The translations under genes and the position numbers were made by a program. DNA of 64,000 nucleotides, taken from Dichotomocladium elegans (taxonomy: Eukaryota; Mucoromycota; Mucoromycetes; Mucorales; Lichtheimiaceae). The stretch is from contig JAIXMN010000017.1 of assembly GCA_025716815.1 (NCBI GenBank), positions 310,001 through 374,000 on the forward strand, given 5' to 3'. The notes below the pieces were generated by a model that saw nothing but the letters and a program-made list of their open reading frames with translations, ran no database searches and had not been told where the DNA came from. Below, one piece after another: positions 27,552-47,595 of the stretch. Each line of letters begins with the position of its first letter. The first letter of the stretch is position 1.

Positions 27552-28003
27552 CGTGCGAATGGTGATGATGGCGGAGAAGGTATGGATTGATTAAGATTAA
27601 ACAATAAGTTGGAAGCGTGCGGGTATGTTCACAATGCAAAGACGACGAGCCACTAATCCTAATGCCAACAAGAACAGATCAATTTTCATAGAAATGTGGA
27701 TACTGAGAGATCTCCACCCCCCCCGGTCTCCCGACCGCTTTTCTCCCTTTAACAGCAGCCACATGGTTTTCCGAAACGGGCTTGAAATACTTCATTTTTT
27801 TAAGAAAAAAGAGCATGCATCATCTCCTCGTCTCCCAGAACTGTTCTAACACATATTGGATACCCATAGTTGATAACTGCAAGTAAGATCATCGTTCAGA
27901 TAGACTTTTCCCTCAAAACCTGCCTTATGTCAATCTATAAACGGGTTAAATTTCGATCTTCGCTTCCTTGGCAGCGAATATACACCATTTTTCAAAATCA
28001 AAG
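27552..28003. other. Upstream region of the AGC kinase gene
   Basis: Promoter side of the kinase gene, then the left flank of the transposon fragment. No coding signal recognised. Confidence 0.4.
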
Positions 28004-28640
28004 TCGCACCCTGCCAGTTTTGAAGTCGCAGGATCGCAAAAATACAAATCGCATTTTTGTCCGGAAATCTTTACGCGTGATGACAAAGCAAAAGTCGCAT
28101 ACATACACGGAAAGATGTCGCAAATCCATCTCATCCTTATGACTCTTTCTCTTTATAAACTTTTACATTTTGAAATGAGCAATCTATTATTTTACAACGA
28201 TGGCCAAGGTCATGTCGCTGATGAGGAAATGTACTTACTTCAATCCGTTTGTTCTTACACTGAATATCTGTGTAGCATATCGTGCAAAGATAACTCTGAG
28301 TTTACTCTCACACACATTCCCAAGCGAAAGGATACATACATTCGGATGAAAGAAGCGGGGATCAAGGGCAGTTACACAGCATACACTGATCAAGGCAAGG
28401 TCAGATGTTTCAAACTGGTGTTTGAGGAGGTATTGAGTGCATCAGCTGCTAGGAATCCATGTTCGTTCAGCACAGCGATGGGCATTGCAGTAAGAAAAGG
28501 ATCCTGACAGCATTTTAAGAAACGTAGAAGCAGGGGGCCGATCGTGTATTCTCAATGAAGAGCATTCATTGTTCTAGAATGCAATTTTCGCTAAAAATAG
28601 CCGTACTCAAAAGAATCCTATATCGAGAAGACTAAGTTTA
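28004..28640 (+). mobile_element. Tc1/IS630-like element, N-terminal fragment (copy A)
   Basis: Nucleotide and protein similarity to copy 1 (1440-2415, minus) and copy B (35702-36130). Shared blocks are the stretch around 28237-28270 (ATCCGTTTGTTCT...), the CCCAAGC.AAAGGAT segment near 28320, and the transposase N-terminus with DQGKVRCFKLVFEE and LSASAARNP, which matches DQDKVRLF and LSASAARNP in copy 1. Upstream, 28004-28110 is shared with copy B only. The catalytic half is missing. A frame of 179 codons (27968-28507) crosses it but is probably fortuitous in its first part. Confidence 0.7.
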
Positions 28641-29020
28641 TTCTTGGAAAGAACAAAGAACTATCAGAGTGTGCTTTCTTTGTCAATGAGCCATTTAGCC
28701 TGGGGATTGTAACTCCGAAGCTGGTTATCAAATGGAATAATGAAGTAATAGCTTTCAGGAGACTCCTGTGTTCTCATTGTAATATTCAGAGAAATTATTC
28801 ATTATGTACCTACACTTTCTGAACGTATGGATAAGGATGACAGCAGTGTCGTGTTTTGTTGTGTTGTAAGAGACTGAGAGAGTACGAAAAGAAGTACAAT
28901 CTTCCTACACTACACAAGTGCCGGATATGTATCGGATTATTCTTGAGATGGTCTCTTGGAATTACTTGTTGGAATTGTTTGGGATTTCATTGTTGATTTC
29001 AGACCGCCCTCACGTCGATA
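28641..29020. other. AT-rich flank between Tc1-like fragment and MITE
   Basis: May contain further decayed transposon sequence. No gene recognised. Confidence 0.35.
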
Positions 29021-29192
29021 CAGTGGCCGCCCCTTATAGTGATACCCTCGGTTCCAGGAAATCGCATCACTATAATGAATTATCACTATAATGAATTGGA
29101 ATAAGCCCTACCTGGCAATTTTGTCCTTCATAAAGTGTATTGCTATAACGAATTATCATTATAATGAATATCACTATAACGAGCGGCCACTG
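29021..29192. mobile_element. 172-bp MITE with pogo-like inverted repeats
   Basis: The left end (CAGTGGCCGCCCCTTATAGT...) and right end (...ACTATAACGAGCGGCCACTG) are inverted repeats of about 24 bp with few mismatches, and both ends are flanked by TA (29019-29020, 29193-29194), the Tc1/pogo target duplication. The interior is AT-rich with repeated ATAACGAATT/ATAATGAATT words, as in Fot1/pogo/Tigger ends. No coding capacity, so it is a non-autonomous element. Confidence 0.85.
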
Positions 29193-29258
29193 TAAAACCT
29201 CATTAAAGAACCCAGTGGGAAAAAGAAAAACACTGTGGAGATGGATCATTGCTGACAC

Positions 29259-29267
29259 TATAAATAG
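29259..29267 (+). promoter_or_regulatory. TATA-box candidate for the Fanzor gene
   Basis: TATAAATAG about 170 bp before the Fanzor start codon. Position and consensus fit a core promoter; no experimental support. Confidence 0.4.
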
Positions 29268-29437
29268 TGATGCTCAAGCAAGCTGTCCCTTTCCATTATC
29301 CACATACAAAACTAGAGCCCATTCAGCCTACAGAAAATAACACAGCACCACATTTACGGTTGAAAGGTAATACGGCCGCTTTCATACTCGGCTCTGCGAT
29401 ACTAAGAAATAATATACCCTAGGTCTTCACCCACCAA

Positions 29438-31636
29438 ATGGCCCAACCCCACCGCCCCGTCATTCCCGAAGGCATGCGCACTGGCCACAGCATTGACCGC
29501 ACTGGCCGTATAATTGGGGTGAAATCGTCCATACGGGGCATCGGCTGGCGACAGCAGTACCGTGAACGTCTGTATCAGTTGGTTGACCTTGTCCACAACA
29601 CCACAACACAGGCGTACGCGTTCGCCAAATATATTTTCATCAACGAGGCAGCGCGCGATCCAACTTTTAACATCCAGGAAAACATCACGGAGAAGTTCTT
29701 TTCAGAAGTTTGGCTCTCCATGGTTAACAAAGCCGAACGCCGCACCCAAGGTGAAACTGCCCGCATCCGAGAACTAATTAATCGCCACAAGGATGAGTAC
29801 CTTCGGATATCCGGATACGACAGGCCTGCGTTCCCTTATTCCCAGCAATGTTCTTCTTACGAAGGCACCAAGATTTATACTGCTTACGTGAATAATGTCC
29901 ACATGCGGTTCGGGCAACACCTTCGGCGTGTCATCAATGTCATCCTGAATCTTCGTCAGCGAAAAGCCGACCGCAAGCGAGAGTTAATCGCACAGGGCCT
30001 AAGCCCCGATCAAGTACGCCAGGACCTTTATGAAACCATCACCCGGCATGCCACAGGATTCAAGCTAGCAATTGCCCGTCGAGGTGTTTTGAGGGAAGAC
30101 ATTAACGCCGAACCTGGATTTCTTCGGGAAGCATACGATATCCTACAACCTGTCTTAAACGCTTACCCCCGAAACCACCAATTCCAACACCAGAGTATCT
30201 ATTACGACGCCAAGGCCAATCCTGTTAAGCATTTCAACGCCTTCTTCCAGCTTGCACGCGTTTGTCAACAGAACGGAATACGCGGATTCAACTGTTTTCC
30301 ACTTCGTCGCTCGTGGTCACCATGCTACATGGAGATCGATACGAAAATCCTTTGCTACCATATCCTGGGCTGCAAAATGGAATCCCACACAAGCAATATG
30401 GAGTACTGGAGACGTGTTGTAAACCTGAAATCAAGAGCTTTCAAACCCCAAGAATCCGAGCTGCTCCAATTCCGTGGGACTATTCACACTGACGGCGTCG
30501 GTGTTACTGTTTTCAAGAAGACAAATGGCCTTCAATCGGGTTTCGGACAAAGATTTGGCATCCAGAGCGAAGATATCGAATACGTCACCCCACAGATACT
30601 CCGGAACGAAGACTATAGAGGACAATGGGTCACCATTGATCCTGGCAGAAGGGACCTGTTGTATTGCGTTCATGAGAACTCGTCACCCGACAACCACCAG
30701 ACCTTCCGATATACAAAGCAGCTTCAAGATCATACACGGAAGACCAAACGGTACCGCAGACTCCGAGAACGACTCAAGTTAGAGCGACCCGAGGTCGCGT
30801 TGGCTGAGCAGAATCTATCGCAATTTCAAAGTCATACGCTTTCCGTGCCCAACTACGACGGATACCTCGCCGCCAAGAATCGGGTCTCTGTAGTTCTCAA
30901 GTCTTTCTACGCGACAACCACTACGAACCACCCGAACCCGCAATTTCTTTTTCGAAAACTTCGCCTGTCAGCGTTTTACAAGAAGCAGCAAGCAGATGAA
31001 AAGCTTCTGGATTCTTTGAATGCGAAGTTTGGCAGTAGATCCGTTTTCGTGATGGGAAATTGGTCTGCGCCGCATACAAGATATCACGAGCCTATCCGTG
31101 GTGTCGGCTTCCGGCGGCTGTTGAAGAAGAACAATTGCAATATTTATTTGGTCGACGAGTACAAGACAAGCAAGTGCTGCCCTGTATGTGACAATGAAAG
31201 CCTTGCTACCTTTAAAATGGTTCCTAATCCACGCCCGTATCGACGACCCGACAATCCGCTCACGATCTGCCATGGCCTGCTACGGTATGAAGGACGGGCA
31301 TGTTGTGTTATACTTCCAAAAGATTATAATACAGTATTTTGATGTTTCAATAGATGCACAAATCAAAACTGTACAGCAGGCATGGCAGAGGGTGTTTGTC
31401 AACCAAGGTTATGGAACCGGGATCTGGCGGCGGCTCTCAACATGCATCATATCCTCCGGGGTCTTCGGGAAGATGGTATCATCCCAGCAAGGTTCCAGAG
31501 AAGAAATGCTGCACAAGCATCCGCAGCTGGTGGAAGACCACACTCACCTGAACCAGAGCAGCGCAGCGTGAGACCACGACGGGCAAGGCCAGGAAGGCCA
31601 CGAGGTGCACGCTCTGGCGGGTCGAGACGACCGTAA
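29438..31636 (+). CDS. Fanzor: eukaryotic TnpB-like RNA-guided nuclease
   Basis: Member of the Fanzor family (transposon-borne eukaryotic relatives of TnpB/Cas12). The first exon is 622 codons long; unspliced it would stop at 31340-31342. A 72-nt intron (about 31305-31376, donor gtgtta, acceptor tgtacag) restores the frame to 31636, giving 708 aa. Seen: RuvC-I WVTIDPGRRDLL (Asp401), LVDEYKTSKCCPVC (Glu574, the relocated RuvC-II acid of Fanzors), zinc-finger Cys581/Cys584 and Cys611 in CHGLLR, and in exon 2 RuvC-III RLWNRDLAAALNMHHILRGL (Asp638). The fourth zinc ligand appears altered (CHGLLRY, Tyr for Cys; Cys622 lies nearby). The N-terminal half is the helical REC/wedge region. The C-terminus is Arg/Pro-rich. 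All three RuvC acids are present, so it could be active. Confidence 0.88.
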
Positions 31637-31649
31637 CCCCAACCAAGAA

Positions 31650-31730
31650 TTTTCCGCGTCAGTTATCGCTGACGCACCCAGGATAACCACAGCCCTTCGG
31701 GGCAAGCCCCCTTCCTTTGGAAGGACGGTG
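31650..31730 (+). ncRNA. Candidate Fanzor guide RNA scaffold (fRNA/omegaRNA)
   Basis: Starting 20 nt after the Fanzor stop codon, three perfect hairpins follow each other: GCGTCAG/CTGACGC with a 6-nt loop (31656-31662, 31669-31675), GCCC/GGGC with a UUCG tetraloop (31692-31703), and CCTTCC/GGAAGG with a UUU loop (31710-31724). Known Fanzor and TnpB guide RNAs are transcribed from the 3' end of the nuclease gene and its adjacent flank, so position and structure fit. The exact 3' end and guide are not determined. Confidence 0.65.
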
Positions 31731-32247
31731 TGTTGTAAGTCAACGGGATTGGAGAAGGCGTAGTGTTTTCTGCTGACTAACAGGGTTTCATCCATGGATG
31801 CGATATCTTTTACCTATTGATACGACAAATTTATATAATTCTATGCGACATTTTTCTTGTATTTTGCACGACATTATTTTATCTTGTTTACGAAATTTAT
31901 TTTTGAAAATAAAGTATGGGTCTTTGAACCAATATCTGAATTTTTATCAAACGCTTGAATTCTTTCCATCACCTCGCCGACCTCCAAATTTGAACGAAGA
32001 AATAGTGAGAGATACGTTTGCCGATTTGAATAAGTACAATGCTCTTCGGGCCTCTTTCTTGTTCTTGATATATTTTGTTTAAGCAAGCAAAAAGAGCGCC
32101 GTCACGATCCAATTTCATGATCGTTTCGAGGACGAAGTTTCGCCCTCCCCCCCCCCAAACCCCCTCTTCGTCCCCGACGGCGGTGCACGCAACTCTTCAT
32201 TTCAGCAACACCCAGATATCAGAAAATACCCGCTATTCTTCTTCATA
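31731..32247. other. Flank of Fanzor element and PP2A-A promoter
   Basis: The right end of the Fanzor element should lie early in this stretch; no inverted repeat or duplication could be fixed. A segment near 31836-31925, read on the minus strand, weakly resembles the 28.0-28.1 and 35.70-35.81 kb repeat. The end is the PP2A-A leader with C and A runs. Confidence 0.35.
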
Positions 32248-43871: not shown

Positions 43872-46800
43872 ATGGATTCACAGTACAGTCGACCTCCTCC
43901 ACCGTATGTGCAGCAACATTGTTCATCATTTGTAAATACCAATGTCAACAATGAAGGCGACGATGACGAAACCGTGTACCACTATCATCATCCAAAAGAA
44001 TCGATGGAAATCAAGACGATGATCCCACACCAAAACCCTCTGAACCCGTTCGCTTTTACACCCGATCAGCTAATGGCCCTGATAGAGAAACGAGATATGG
44101 GAACCTTGCATAGCATTGGCGGCGTGGATGGACTTGCAAAGGGACTCCATTCAAACACGCAGCATGGCCTTAATCCAAACCAGGAGCAGTATGAATTACA
44201 CTCAATTTCGCTTGATGATCTACAAGCGAGGACATCGAGTCGTAGCGAACATGACGATGATGAAGACATTGAGGAGGAGATCGCGGCATATGATTTGCAG
44301 GAGCTCCCAAAAAAACACGAGACATTTCATCAGCGCCGAGCTATCTTCGGATCGAATGTGCTGCCTCATATTCGACACAAGAGTCTTCTGGCGCTAATGT
44401 GGGCGGCGCTGAAAGACAAAACATTGGTAAGTAAAATTACCACAAGGAGAACGAAGAATTAACAAGCAGGAGGTTTCCATCTCTCTCTCTTTTTTTTGCA
44501 GATCATGTTGACAGTATCGGCGGCAATTTCTCTTGCAGTTGGTATCTATGAGGATACCACGACAGCCGACTATGACGAGAACGGGCGACGTATCCCAGGA
44601 GTAAAGTGGGTTGAGGGTGTCGCAATCATTATGGCTGTCATTATTGTCGTTCTTGTCGGGAGCATCAACGATTATCAAAAGGAGAAGAAGTTTCGACAGC
44701 TTAATACCAAAAAACACGACCGAAGAGTGAATGCAAGTTGAACTTTATTTACTCATAAAAACAGGGGATCTCATACATTTGCTAAAAGGTAATTCGAACG
44801 TGCCATACGGTCATTGTTCCTGTGCGCGATATCCAAGTGGGCGATGTGCTCTACCTCGGCCCAGGGGACATTGTTCCAGCCGACGGCGTGTTCATCGCTG
44901 GAAACAATCTCAAGTGCGATGAGTCTGCAGCCACCGGTGAATCTGATGCTGTTCGTAAAATGGGTCTCGAGGAATGCCTCGCGGTACACTGGGAAGAGAA
45001 CGAATCCACTGCTAGCTTTGCATGTATCGACGATGATGCGATGGCTGAACCTCATTTCCCAGATCCTTTTCTTGTGTCGGGTTCTAAAGTGATCGAGGGC
45101 GACTGTACATACCTTGTGACAGCAGTGGGTTTCAACTCAATTCACGGCCAGACCATGATGGCACTTCGAACCAAGGATGAAAACACGCCTCTACAAGACA
45201 AACTAGACCTACTAGCCGGCAATATTGCTAAGTTAGGCGTGTCTGCTGCCGGCGTACTTTTTATCATTCTGATCACACGGTGCATTATCTCTCTTATCAC
45301 ATTCAGCGTTCCGGTATCGCTCTCGGAGGTAATGTCCCAAATCATGCGCATACTGATTACTACGGTGACGATGGTTGTCGTGGCGGTACCTGAGGGCCTG
45401 CCACTCGCCGTAACTTTAGGTACGTTTAGTATTGTGGAACAGGAGCATTTTCCAACGCCCTTGTGTATAGCACTCGCATATGCCACGCAGAGGATGCTTA
45501 AAGACAACAACCTCGTCCGTGTGCTCGCCGCATGTGAGACGATGGGAAATGCCACGACCATCTGTTCGGACAAAACTGGGACGCTGACCCAGAACCAGAT
45601 GGCCGTTGTCGCTGGTACTATTGGATCATCGTTCCGATTCCTCAAGGATCCACCTGCATCTAGGAGTGACCTCATTGATGTTGGGGAAGTTCGATTTCGC
45701 CTTCCCTTACCAGTCAGGTCCTTTCTTAATCAGGCGCTGGTTATAAACTCGAGCGCTATCACCAGCACCAATGACGTTGGCGAAGTTTTTCTTACGGGAA
45801 ACAAGACAGAAACAGCGCTTCTTAATTTTGCTCAGGAATATTTGGGTTGTGAACCTGTGGATCAGTTGCGTACCTTCTGGCCCGTCGAGCAAGTCTATCC
45901 ATTTAATTCATCACGCAAATCAATGGCCACAGTGATTCGGATGTCAGTTTTGGACGAACGCACCAAGCGCGAGCGGGTCGTTTATAGGCTTCATGTCAAG
46001 GGAGCAAGTGAATTTCTTCTCAATGCATCGGCGTCCATTGTATCCATGCATGCTGCTTCGTACGACCGATTCGAAGGCATTGAACATGGGAACTGCTATG
46101 ACATCGAGACGCGAAGAATGACAGATGCCAATCGAGCACGTATGTCAAAGATTATCCAGAGCTACGCTACACGTTGCCTCCGCACTCTCGCTATCTGCTA
46201 TCAAGACTTTGATGAGTGGCCATCCCAACAGAAACTCGAGAATGTATTAGCCGAAGGCGGACTCACACTGATCGGGATTGTGGGTATCGAGGACCCGCTT
46301 CGTCCTGGAGTCAGGGATGCTGTTGCTGCATGCCAACGCGCAGGAGTATGTGTGCGAATGGTCACAGGCGACAATATGCTCACAGCCAAGAGCATCGCAC
46401 GACAGTGTGGCATCTATACGCCTGGTGGGAAAACCATGGATGGTCCGACATTTCGTCACCTATCACCTTCTGATCGTCTCCGTGTTCTCCCCAATCTTCA
46501 GGTGCTTGCGCGAACCAGTCCCGAAGACAAGCGACTGTTAGTTCAATCGTTACGCGAGCTTGGCAATATTGTTGCAGTTACAGGCGATGGCACAAATGAT
46601 GGGCCGGCTCTGAAGGCTGCAGACGTTGGATTCTCCATGGGACTCTCGGGAACCGAGGTGGCCAAGGAAGCATCAAGTATTATCTTGATGGACGACAATT
46701 TCTCCAGCATCGTCCGTGCGATCAGCTGGGGCCGCTGCGTGAACGATTCGGTTAAGAAGTTTCTCCAGTTCCAGCTCACAGTCAACATCACTGCCATTGT

Positions 46801-47595
46801 CCTCACTTTAGTATCGGCTTTGATTAGCAATGAGCAGCGGTCAGTGCTGACGGCTGTTCAGTTACTCTGGGTGAACCTTATTATGGATACTCTCGCAGCA
46901 CTGGCCCTTGCAACTGACCCACCTACACCAGCGCTCCTGGAACGCCTGCCCGAACCACGGGCAGCACCATTGATCAACAGTACAATGTGGAAGATGATCC
47001 TGGGACAGGGCACATTCCAGATAACGGTGATATTCATGTTGATGTATGCCGATCTGTTCAATCTTGCGGACGACAAGGCCACATTGAACACTGTTGTATT
47101 CACAGCGTTTGTGTTGTGCCAGATTTTTAATGAGATCAAGTAAGTGATAGATTGATGGATGTGCGCTGACTTCCTTTCATGTATTAAACTCCGTGTTATC
47201 ATTTGCTAAGCTGCCGTCGAATTGACAACCACTTTAATGTATTCAAGGGCATATCTGAGAACCATTTCTTCATTGCTATTTTTGCTACAACCATCTTCGG
47301 TCAATTTCTGATCGTTCACTTTGGTGGAACAGCTTTTCAGACAGTTCCTCTCGATTTGAAACAGTGGGCTCTGTGCATACTAATCGGTAGCATGTCTCTC
47401 CCCGTTGGTGCACTAGTACGCTTGGTACCTGACGACCTCTTCGTTCATGGGTGTGAACGAGGCCCCGCATTGACACATGGGATATACACGGTCGATAGCA
47501 ATGAAACATTAGCCTGGACTGCAGCTCCTGCAGCCATCACCCGCATGCGCCATAGTAAACGAAGTACAGACATTGAAGCGCAGAGTATTATATGA
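43872..47595 (+). CDS. P-type Ca2+-ATPase, PMC1/PMCA type
   Basis: Calcium pump of the P2B class, expected in the vacuolar or plasma membrane. Exons: 43872-44426, 44502-44732, 44789-45419, 45471-47139 and 47211-47595, total 1156 aa. Seen: a long hydrophilic N-terminus with an acidic stretch (HDDDEDIEEE); actuator DESAATGESDAV; membrane segment 4 VAVPEGLPLAVTL; phosphorylation site CSDKTGTLTQNQM; nucleotide region KGASEFLL; hinge VTGDGTNDGPALKAADVGFSMG; VNLIMDTLAALALATDPPT; and IFNEINCRRIDNHFNVFKG. Intron 2 has a GC donor (AAT|GCAAGT). Intron 3 (45420-45470) is 51 nt with no stop, so unspliced sequence reads through it; removing it restores AVTLALAYATQRML. No calmodulin-binding tail is evident; the C-terminus is short as in yeast Pmc1. 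Confidence 0.95.

Follow-up and report, generated by a model that had tools for sequence, protein, structure and literature searches.

The window, that is, the whole 64,000-nucleotide stretch of Dichotomocladium elegans (Mucorales) DNA that was analysed, contains a Fanzor1 gene inside a transposon of the Tc1/mariner type; unless stated otherwise, the parts of this gene and transposon described here lie on the forward strand. An ATG-initiated open reading frame at 29438–31342 translates into 634 amino acids, which include two catalytic strings, TIDPGRRD (D401) and LVDEYKTS (E574), and end ahead of the third catalytic acid, as the initial annotation had described. That annotation also placed the third acid in a second exon, and removal of an intron does join the frame in phase to the string WNRDLAAALN and a basic tail. 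Downstream of the gene, the element continues into a stem-loop region resembling an omega RNA and ends at a TA dinucleotide.

The Fanzor1 gene and its product

The enumeration of GT–AG pairs returned many that are formally possible, several of them in phase with exon 2. The pair at 31305–31376, which the initial annotation had proposed, gives a product of 708 amino acids, with the third acid at Asp638 and the string CHGLLRY in place of CHGLLRC, i.e., with one zinc ligand seemingly changed. The pair at 31285–31353 (69 nt, GTATGA...CAATAG) gives 709 amino acids, with the string CHGLLRC-TNQNC-...-WNRDLAAALN, and is most likely the intron as predicted from the sequence. It was chosen over 31305–31376, which is rejected on the splice-pair enumeration and the intron position in divergent loci, because five of the six more remote Fanzor loci examined in this genome share the site, because its borders are kept in the copies, and because the residues at the intron position are HGLLRC in PpFz1 and HGLLGC in SpuFz1, both of them proteins of solved structure. 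In these five loci (L107–L111; 52–57% identical), a GT–AG intron yielding HGLLRC..C lies exactly at the 31285 position; the donors are GTATGAAG or GTATAAAG, and the acceptor AG is followed by ATGC exactly at the codon of this intron. A stop follows shortly past the intron in L110, and the sixth locus, L112 (49% identical and decayed), gave no intron solution. Among 21 copies of the gene, the splice borders of the 69-nt intron are kept in 20, while L015 has the broken donor ATATGA.

With the intron at 31285–31353, D639 becomes the third acid and the zinc ligands are all retained; the apparent loss was an artefact of the wrong borders, and the position holds an ordinary cysteine, C617, which is Cys in 11 of 13 aligned homologues and Ala in P0003. 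P0014 has HGLLRY at the zinc position and loses similarity directly after it, as if this intron had been translated in that sequence. Exon 1 (29438–31284) thus carries D401, E574, and the zinc ligands C581 and C584, and exon 2 (31354–31636) carries the ligands C617 and C622, D639, and the basic tail, up to the TAA codon at 31634–31636. A small second exon of this kind can make such a gene seem truncated or mutated. A literature search for a Fanzor gene with an intron in Mucor found nothing.

Alignment to the solved proteins bears out the Fanzor identity. The only two distinct PDB sequences matched up to E 1 are PpFz1 (9cf0, E 1e-129) and SpuFz1 (8gkh, E 3e-52), and the triad D401/E574/D639 falls on D383/E541/D606 of SpuFz1 (residues counted from the NRD aspartate, D606), whose catalytic roles are stated in PMC10432273. 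The family alignments in which the initial annotation had proposed to look for the three acids and the zinc finger show D401 and E574 invariant in all 14 sequences and D639 at 90% or more (our protein and 13 of 32 homologues). The RuvC motifs D401-P402-G403, E574, and N637-R638-D639 are accompanied by a C4 zinc ribbon between E and RD (C581, C584, C617, and C622, with the 69-nt intron) and by the TDG motif of the WED domain (T351-D352-G353, of which T and G never vary and D is present at 90% or more), a mark of Fanzor1 according to PMC10711439. The relocated glutamate and the DPG motif are not new, since the same source gives them as a mark of the Fanzor clade. At least 32 homologues were found at E ≤ 0.001 among the 7999 scored candidates sharing the most words, the top seven being 40–47% identical; of the 32 homologues listed, 24 carry an organism name, fungal in every case, and 29 carry PF26935. 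Pfam returned only a sub-threshold match of the spliced protein to Cas12f1-like_TNB. The basic tail past residue 666 has no counterpart in the alignment with the solved chains. Taken with the selection described below, these residues indicate that the gene is complete and its product a plausibly active Fanzor1, as had been supposed.

The closest solved relative, PpFz1 of Parasitella parasitica (PMC11423790), aligns in two blocks and shares with our protein the DPG..E..NRD triad, the zinc ribbon, and an origin in the Mucorales. It differs by 93 further residues near our residue 505, which from their size would be the cyclophilin-binding FRI domain, placed in RuvC at about 100 residues by PMC11423790. 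SpuFz1 of Spizellomyces punctatus (PMC10432273) is more remote; it has the corresponding triad and an HGLL-C-TN zinc site, and it too exists in tens of copies, with many ghost loci described that have the RNA but lack the gene. It differs in that its gene is a single open frame, and its authors report that a transposase was not seen within its ends. RNA-guided cleavage of double-stranded DNA by the 709-aa protein is predicted from family membership. The proposal of a new eukaryotic RNA-guided nuclease therefore holds for a new member of Fanzor1 and not for a new kind, as Fanzor1, the relocated RuvC-II glutamate, and carriage by Mucorales transposons and by Tc/mariner elements are already published (PMC10711439, PMC3627910, PMC11423790).

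The transposon and its copies

The element spans 27981–31914 (3934 bp, 3.93 kb), with the left end TACACCATTTTTCAAAATCAAAG and the right end ATTTTTGAAAATAAAG, and its borders are common to 20 copies and the window. In 21 copies chosen by the gene and not by their ends, the left border is TA in all 21 (TATACAC in 18; TATATA in L011, L025, and L026) and the right border is AAGTA in all 21. The TA at 27979–27980 and that at 31915–31916, neither assigned to a strand, are presumed to be a target-site duplication; TA on both sides fits such a duplication and could also be a fixed part of the ends. Duplication is presumed and not proved because a search with 21 joined flank pairs against loci over 700 bases and the window yielded no empty site. 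The inverted repeats at the termini extend over just 14 nt and match at 86%, and GTCGCA-type subterminal motifs can be seen by eye on both sides. Insertion prefers AT-TA-TA, as 36 canonical copies have 24 A and 26 T before the TA and 20 T and 21 A after it. Patterns of the ends, allowing up to three mismatches in 22 bases, matched the genome at 215 left and 501 right ends (controls 0 and 2, respectively), and a large set of elements therefore has these ends. Right ends outnumber left ends at the same tolerance, and many elements may have only the right end.

In L045, an element with the same ends, a DDE_3 segment matched at E 2e-15 (another piece reaches only E 0.03) comes after a stretch that aligns to the first 604 bases of the window element at 79% nucleotide identity. 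The window element has only that stretch (27981–28582), a relict of the first part of the DDE_3 transposase gene from which the DDE core is missing. Fanzor1 is therefore carried here by a eukaryotic, non-IS607 transposon, as evidenced by the ends shared among 21 copies and the DDE_3 segment in a same-ended element; the build is Tc1/mariner (IS630)-like and non-autonomous, and the element is probably moved in trans by same-ended DDE_3 elements. In L047, a related element, an HTH domain matches at a sub-threshold score. Because the left ends at first seemed fixed and the right flanks variable, the ends were also considered as those of a Crypton or another tyrosine-recombinase element; this origin was dropped because of the DDE_3 segment between the same ends. 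The frame at 27968–28507 was likewise rejected as a separate gene; it has no Pfam match and overlaps the transposase relict.

Querying the genome with the transposase fragment gave 150 scored matches of 866 candidates, a few of which fall in long open reading frames (of 475 aa in two cases). All six loci retrieved with the transposase (L101–L106) have a divergent Fanzor piece (about 43–51% identity) on the strand opposite the transposase, as does L046. In L046, the scaffold and the right end lie on the transposase strand, and its guide RNA would therefore not belong to the Fanzor transcript. The window element also contains a nested short element (29019–29194, no strand assigned), with 26-nt inverted ends that start with TA and arms that are 92% complementary; it starts TACAGTGGCCGC and looks like another TA-inserting MITE inside the Fanzor transposon.

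Among published elements, PGv-1, PUl-1, and PUl-4 (PMC3627910) are similar in that Fanzor1 lies within mariner-like ends flanked by a TA duplication, with a transposase in some and none in others; the hosts named in that source differ, being viruses and a Hydra contig. The Mucorales Fanzor elements described there by Bao and Jurka are MuDR-like (9-bp duplications) or unclassified. A literature search for Dichotomocladium transposons found nothing.

With 40 of 213 candidates scored, the 39.4-Mb genome has at least 41 DNA matches of the gene at 94–100% identity, two of which, on C2, are pieces of one copy. With the 69-nt intron removed, the 709-aa product is open in 16 of the 21 copies read, including L015 with its broken donor, and interrupted by frame breaks or stops in L020, L021, L024, L027, and L028; L023 and L026 each have a change within one tested motif string. 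Unique changes in the 16 open copies comprise 46 synonymous and 38 non-synonymous ones (omega-like 0.38, p 1e-5), and those in all 21 copies comprise 65 synonymous and 64 non-synonymous changes and two stops (omega-like 0.44, p 5e-6). The excess of synonymous changes suggests that the protein has been under selection within the family. Per kb, exon 1 has 4.2 changes, the intron 4.8, and exon 2 4.9, which are similar densities. A second Fanzor set, at 52–57% identity, lies at C79:1297087, C40:584332, C57:1660083, C28:303363, and C46:1279656; in three of its members, exon 1 lies in a frame that stays open for more than 600 codons, and exon 2 of the C40 copy is interrupted by a stop.

The downstream scaffold and the predicted guide

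The region just 3' of the stop codon reads UUUUCC-GCGUCAG-UUAUCG-CUGACGC, followed by a UUCG hairpin. The first stem-loop (SL1, 31656–31675) has 7 bp and the loop UUAUCG, and the second (SL2, 31692–31703) is GCCC-UUCG-GGGC, predicted by folding, its UUCG being kept in the other families. This scaffold is common to three families, i.e., that of the window, that of L113/L114/L116/L117, and that of L045/L046. Across seven sequences of the three families, SL1 is paired in 49 of 49 cells, and four of its seven pairs are changed on both sides. No shuffle out of 500 reached the covariation score or the paired share, 18 of 500 reached the number of pairs changed on both sides, and 423 of 500 reached the number of pair types, whereas slid controls pair at 25–59%. 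The covariation of SL1 is thus strong in kind and small in number, because only three families are independent. SL2 is weaker, as the L113 scaffold folded alone has a minimum-energy structure without the UUCG stem, and the 3'UTR as a whole folds just modestly better than shuffles (z −1.9 and −1.3; L113 −1.3). By its structure, through covariation, the region downstream of the gene is a putative omega RNA with a 7-bp SL1; the three Fanzor1 RNAs in PMC11423790 have a 7-bp SL1 as well, and that of PpFz1 has a 4-bp SL2.

Exact scaffold patterns matched the genome 116 and 164 times, and the reversed-pattern controls 0 times. At least one scaffold lies in an element without room for a Fanzor gene (C39:465779–467743), with a transposase match inside, which resembles the ghost loci of S. 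punctatus (PMC10432273). L068, a 490-bp deletion copy, was considered as a ghost locus and rejected; by eye, it keeps the GTAAGT described below and neither SL1 nor SL2. SL1 and SL2 were not seen by eye in L115, of the 52% family, and Rfam gave no match on 27900–32000 up to E 1.

The scaffold starts 97–266 nt ahead of the right end of the element (48 hand-paired cases of 100 listed scaffold places; 264 nt in the window), whereas the 75-nt scaffold of SpuFz1 takes in the right end (PMC10432273). Directly behind the scaffold stands GTAAGT (31735–31740), a perfect 5' splice-site sequence; 20 of 21 copies have it, as do both other families with the exception of L114. A CTAACAG follows 47–49 nt on in two families and is missing there in the L113 family; it resembles two 3' splice sites of the host, CTAAAAG and GCTAAG. 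Read together, the two signals delimit a possible 49-nt intron of the 3'UTR (31735–31783; 47 nt in L045/L046), ending CTGACTAACAG. Between TGACTAA(CAG) and the terminal AAAG, AG is absent from all nine sequences tested (shuffles 2.9–4.1, P 0.006–0.03 for each, the copies being related). L114, the tenth tested of twelve aligned sequences, in which GTAAGT is lost, has no AG from SL2 on, against 1.8 (P 0.10).

Host introns in the window come from a calcium ATPase gene, the frame of which (44822–47143) is 98% identical to an annotated D. elegans protein. Its four introns, located by that protein, lie at 44427–44501, 44727–44788, 45420–45470, and 47140–47210, and two of them end in AAG directly behind CTAA, which suggests a branch point very near the 3' splice site in this fungus.

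The guide is predicted to start just past the right TA, a position taken from the Fanzor RNAs of PMC10432273 and PMC10711439. The likeliest reading, to which we give an even chance, is that one long omega RNA runs on to the end of the element, either unspliced or minus just 31735–31783, with the flank as the guide and the spacer tolerated. Published Fanzor1 RNAs hold the terminal repeat and run about 14–15 nt into the flank (PMC10432273, PMC10711439), and the spacer aligns between families. Furthermore, the AATAAA right at the element's terminus (31908–31913), a possible poly-A signal, could set the end of the RNA in the flank, although this is a guess. Two points stand against a long RNA: the spacing of 97–266 nt is unlike a rigid scaffold, and PpFz1, the closest solved relative, has just a short scaffold.

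It seems improbable that the guide RNA is itself spliced, from the GTAAGT at 31735 to the AAAG at 31911–31914, so that TA and the host flank would form a guide directly behind SL2. This proposal would account for the free spacing between scaffold and end, and it draws on the GTAAGT behind SL2 in three families, the lack of AG up to the terminal AAAG in nine sequences, and the AAG ending of two host introns; the guide residues of the PpFz1 RNA, moreover, run from about nt 50 on, near the size of our scaffold (PMC11423790). However, a nearer host-like 3' site, CTAACAG, is available in two families, and the intron would be 180 nt long, as compared with 51–75 nt in the four host introns. The loss of GTAAGT in L114 also counts against it, though that copy is itself broken by the exon 2 stop (L110). 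If true, the splicing of a scaffold to its guide would represent a novel route of guide RNA formation.

Left-end junctions and the possible role of Fanzor

The left junction was compared with the right flank in 51 copies, 46 of them by script; L013, L014, L018, L021, and L027 fell outside the script set for string reasons and have the usual left end by eye. Of the 46 in the script set, 36 have the canonical left end, defined as TATACAC, and the other 10 deviate from it. Six of these ten match their own right flank over 6–8 nt, compared with a mean of 0.6 and a maximum of 4 in shuffles (0 of 20,000 reach six). Over all 46 copies, seven left ends match their own right flank against 2.2 expected, which none of 5000 shuffles reached. 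With L068 set aside for a match at an offset, five scarred copies are left among the 51: L011, L025, L026, L050/L051, and L052/L053. In each, the left junction reads as the inferred empty site, extended beyond the TA by 4–7 nt of right-flank sequence, and then the element. By eye, the joins fall at microhomologies of 3–4 bp between flank and element (ACC, CCAT, CAT, ACC, and ACC). The other five odd left ends (L047, L066, L068, L087, and L095) have no clean scar. Right-hand scars would be missed in the added copies because an intact pattern served to select most of their right ends; the 21 copies selected by the gene include three scarred on the left and none similarly on the right.

The explanation we hold somewhat more readily, short of an even chance, is that the scars result from aberrant joining by the transposase with a longer stagger, since a repeat of 6–8 bp at both ends would appear identical. 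The AT-TA-TA preference favours TATA flanks, and TATACC stands to the right in 6 of 46 copies, among which are three of the five scarred ones. Such joining has to be squared with the usual TA-TACAC at 36 of 46 left ends and with the position of all five joins, judged by eye, at 3–4 bp common to the flank and the element end, as in break repair.

Nuclease-driven retention of a transposon is an idea put forward for TnpB. We tentatively suggest, as a possibility well below even, that the left-end scars are natural footprints of homing by the RNA-guided nuclease, i.e., of cutting and copying at allelic empty sites. Such junctions would arise if an intact empty site were broken on the right-hand side of the TA, the place at which a Fanzor guided by the flank is expected to cut, and then repaired by copying from an occupied copy. 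The scars are the only observations in favour of cutting, and they may have other causes. No report of a spliced omega RNA or of homing scars was found in the Fanzor and TnpB literature, which was consulted in part, so that absence is not thereby proved.

Taken as a whole, the locus is very probably a spliced Fanzor1 gene (29438–31284 joined to 31354–31636, 709 aa) in a Tc1/mariner-type transposon of D. elegans, with a putative omega RNA and predicted flank-guided cutting of empty sites. The element has lost its own transposase core and is probably moved in trans by related same-ended DDE_3 elements. Its 3' region would be transcribed into an omega RNA, with SL1 and SL2 as the scaffold just past the stop codon and the host DNA beyond the right end as the guide. 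The complex of Fanzor and RNA would then recognise and cut empty copies of its own insertion site (TA and the right flank), and repair from the occupied copy would restore or spread the element. The sequence itself establishes the frame, where the intron lies, the triad and zinc ligands, the TA-flanked ends, the number of copies, the selection, and the covariation of the scaffold, whereas transcription and splicing, the TA as a duplication, the place of the guide, cutting, homing, and help in trans are deduced. That the family is instead a decaying relic without present function is very unlikely, as the frame breaks or stops in 5 of 21 copies and the relict transposase are outweighed by the open 709-aa product in the window, the synonymous excess among the copies, and the conservation of splice borders and scaffold.

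The role of Fanzor for its transposon is discussed without an answer in the parts of PMC10432273 that we consulted, and its study is called for in PMC10711439. The protein described here is itself an ordinary Fanzor1, encoded by a complete gene in an unusually informative transposon family, and the parts that could be new are the joining of scaffold and guide and the scars as traces of Fanzor homing. The genome offers many near-identical copies with a complete gene, a covarying scaffold RNA, same-ended transposase elements, and junction scars, and these scars could be used as an in vivo test of empty-site cutting by Fanzor. If homing is true, Fanzor would spread its transposon by cutting and copying, and the high copy number of this family would be partly due to homing.
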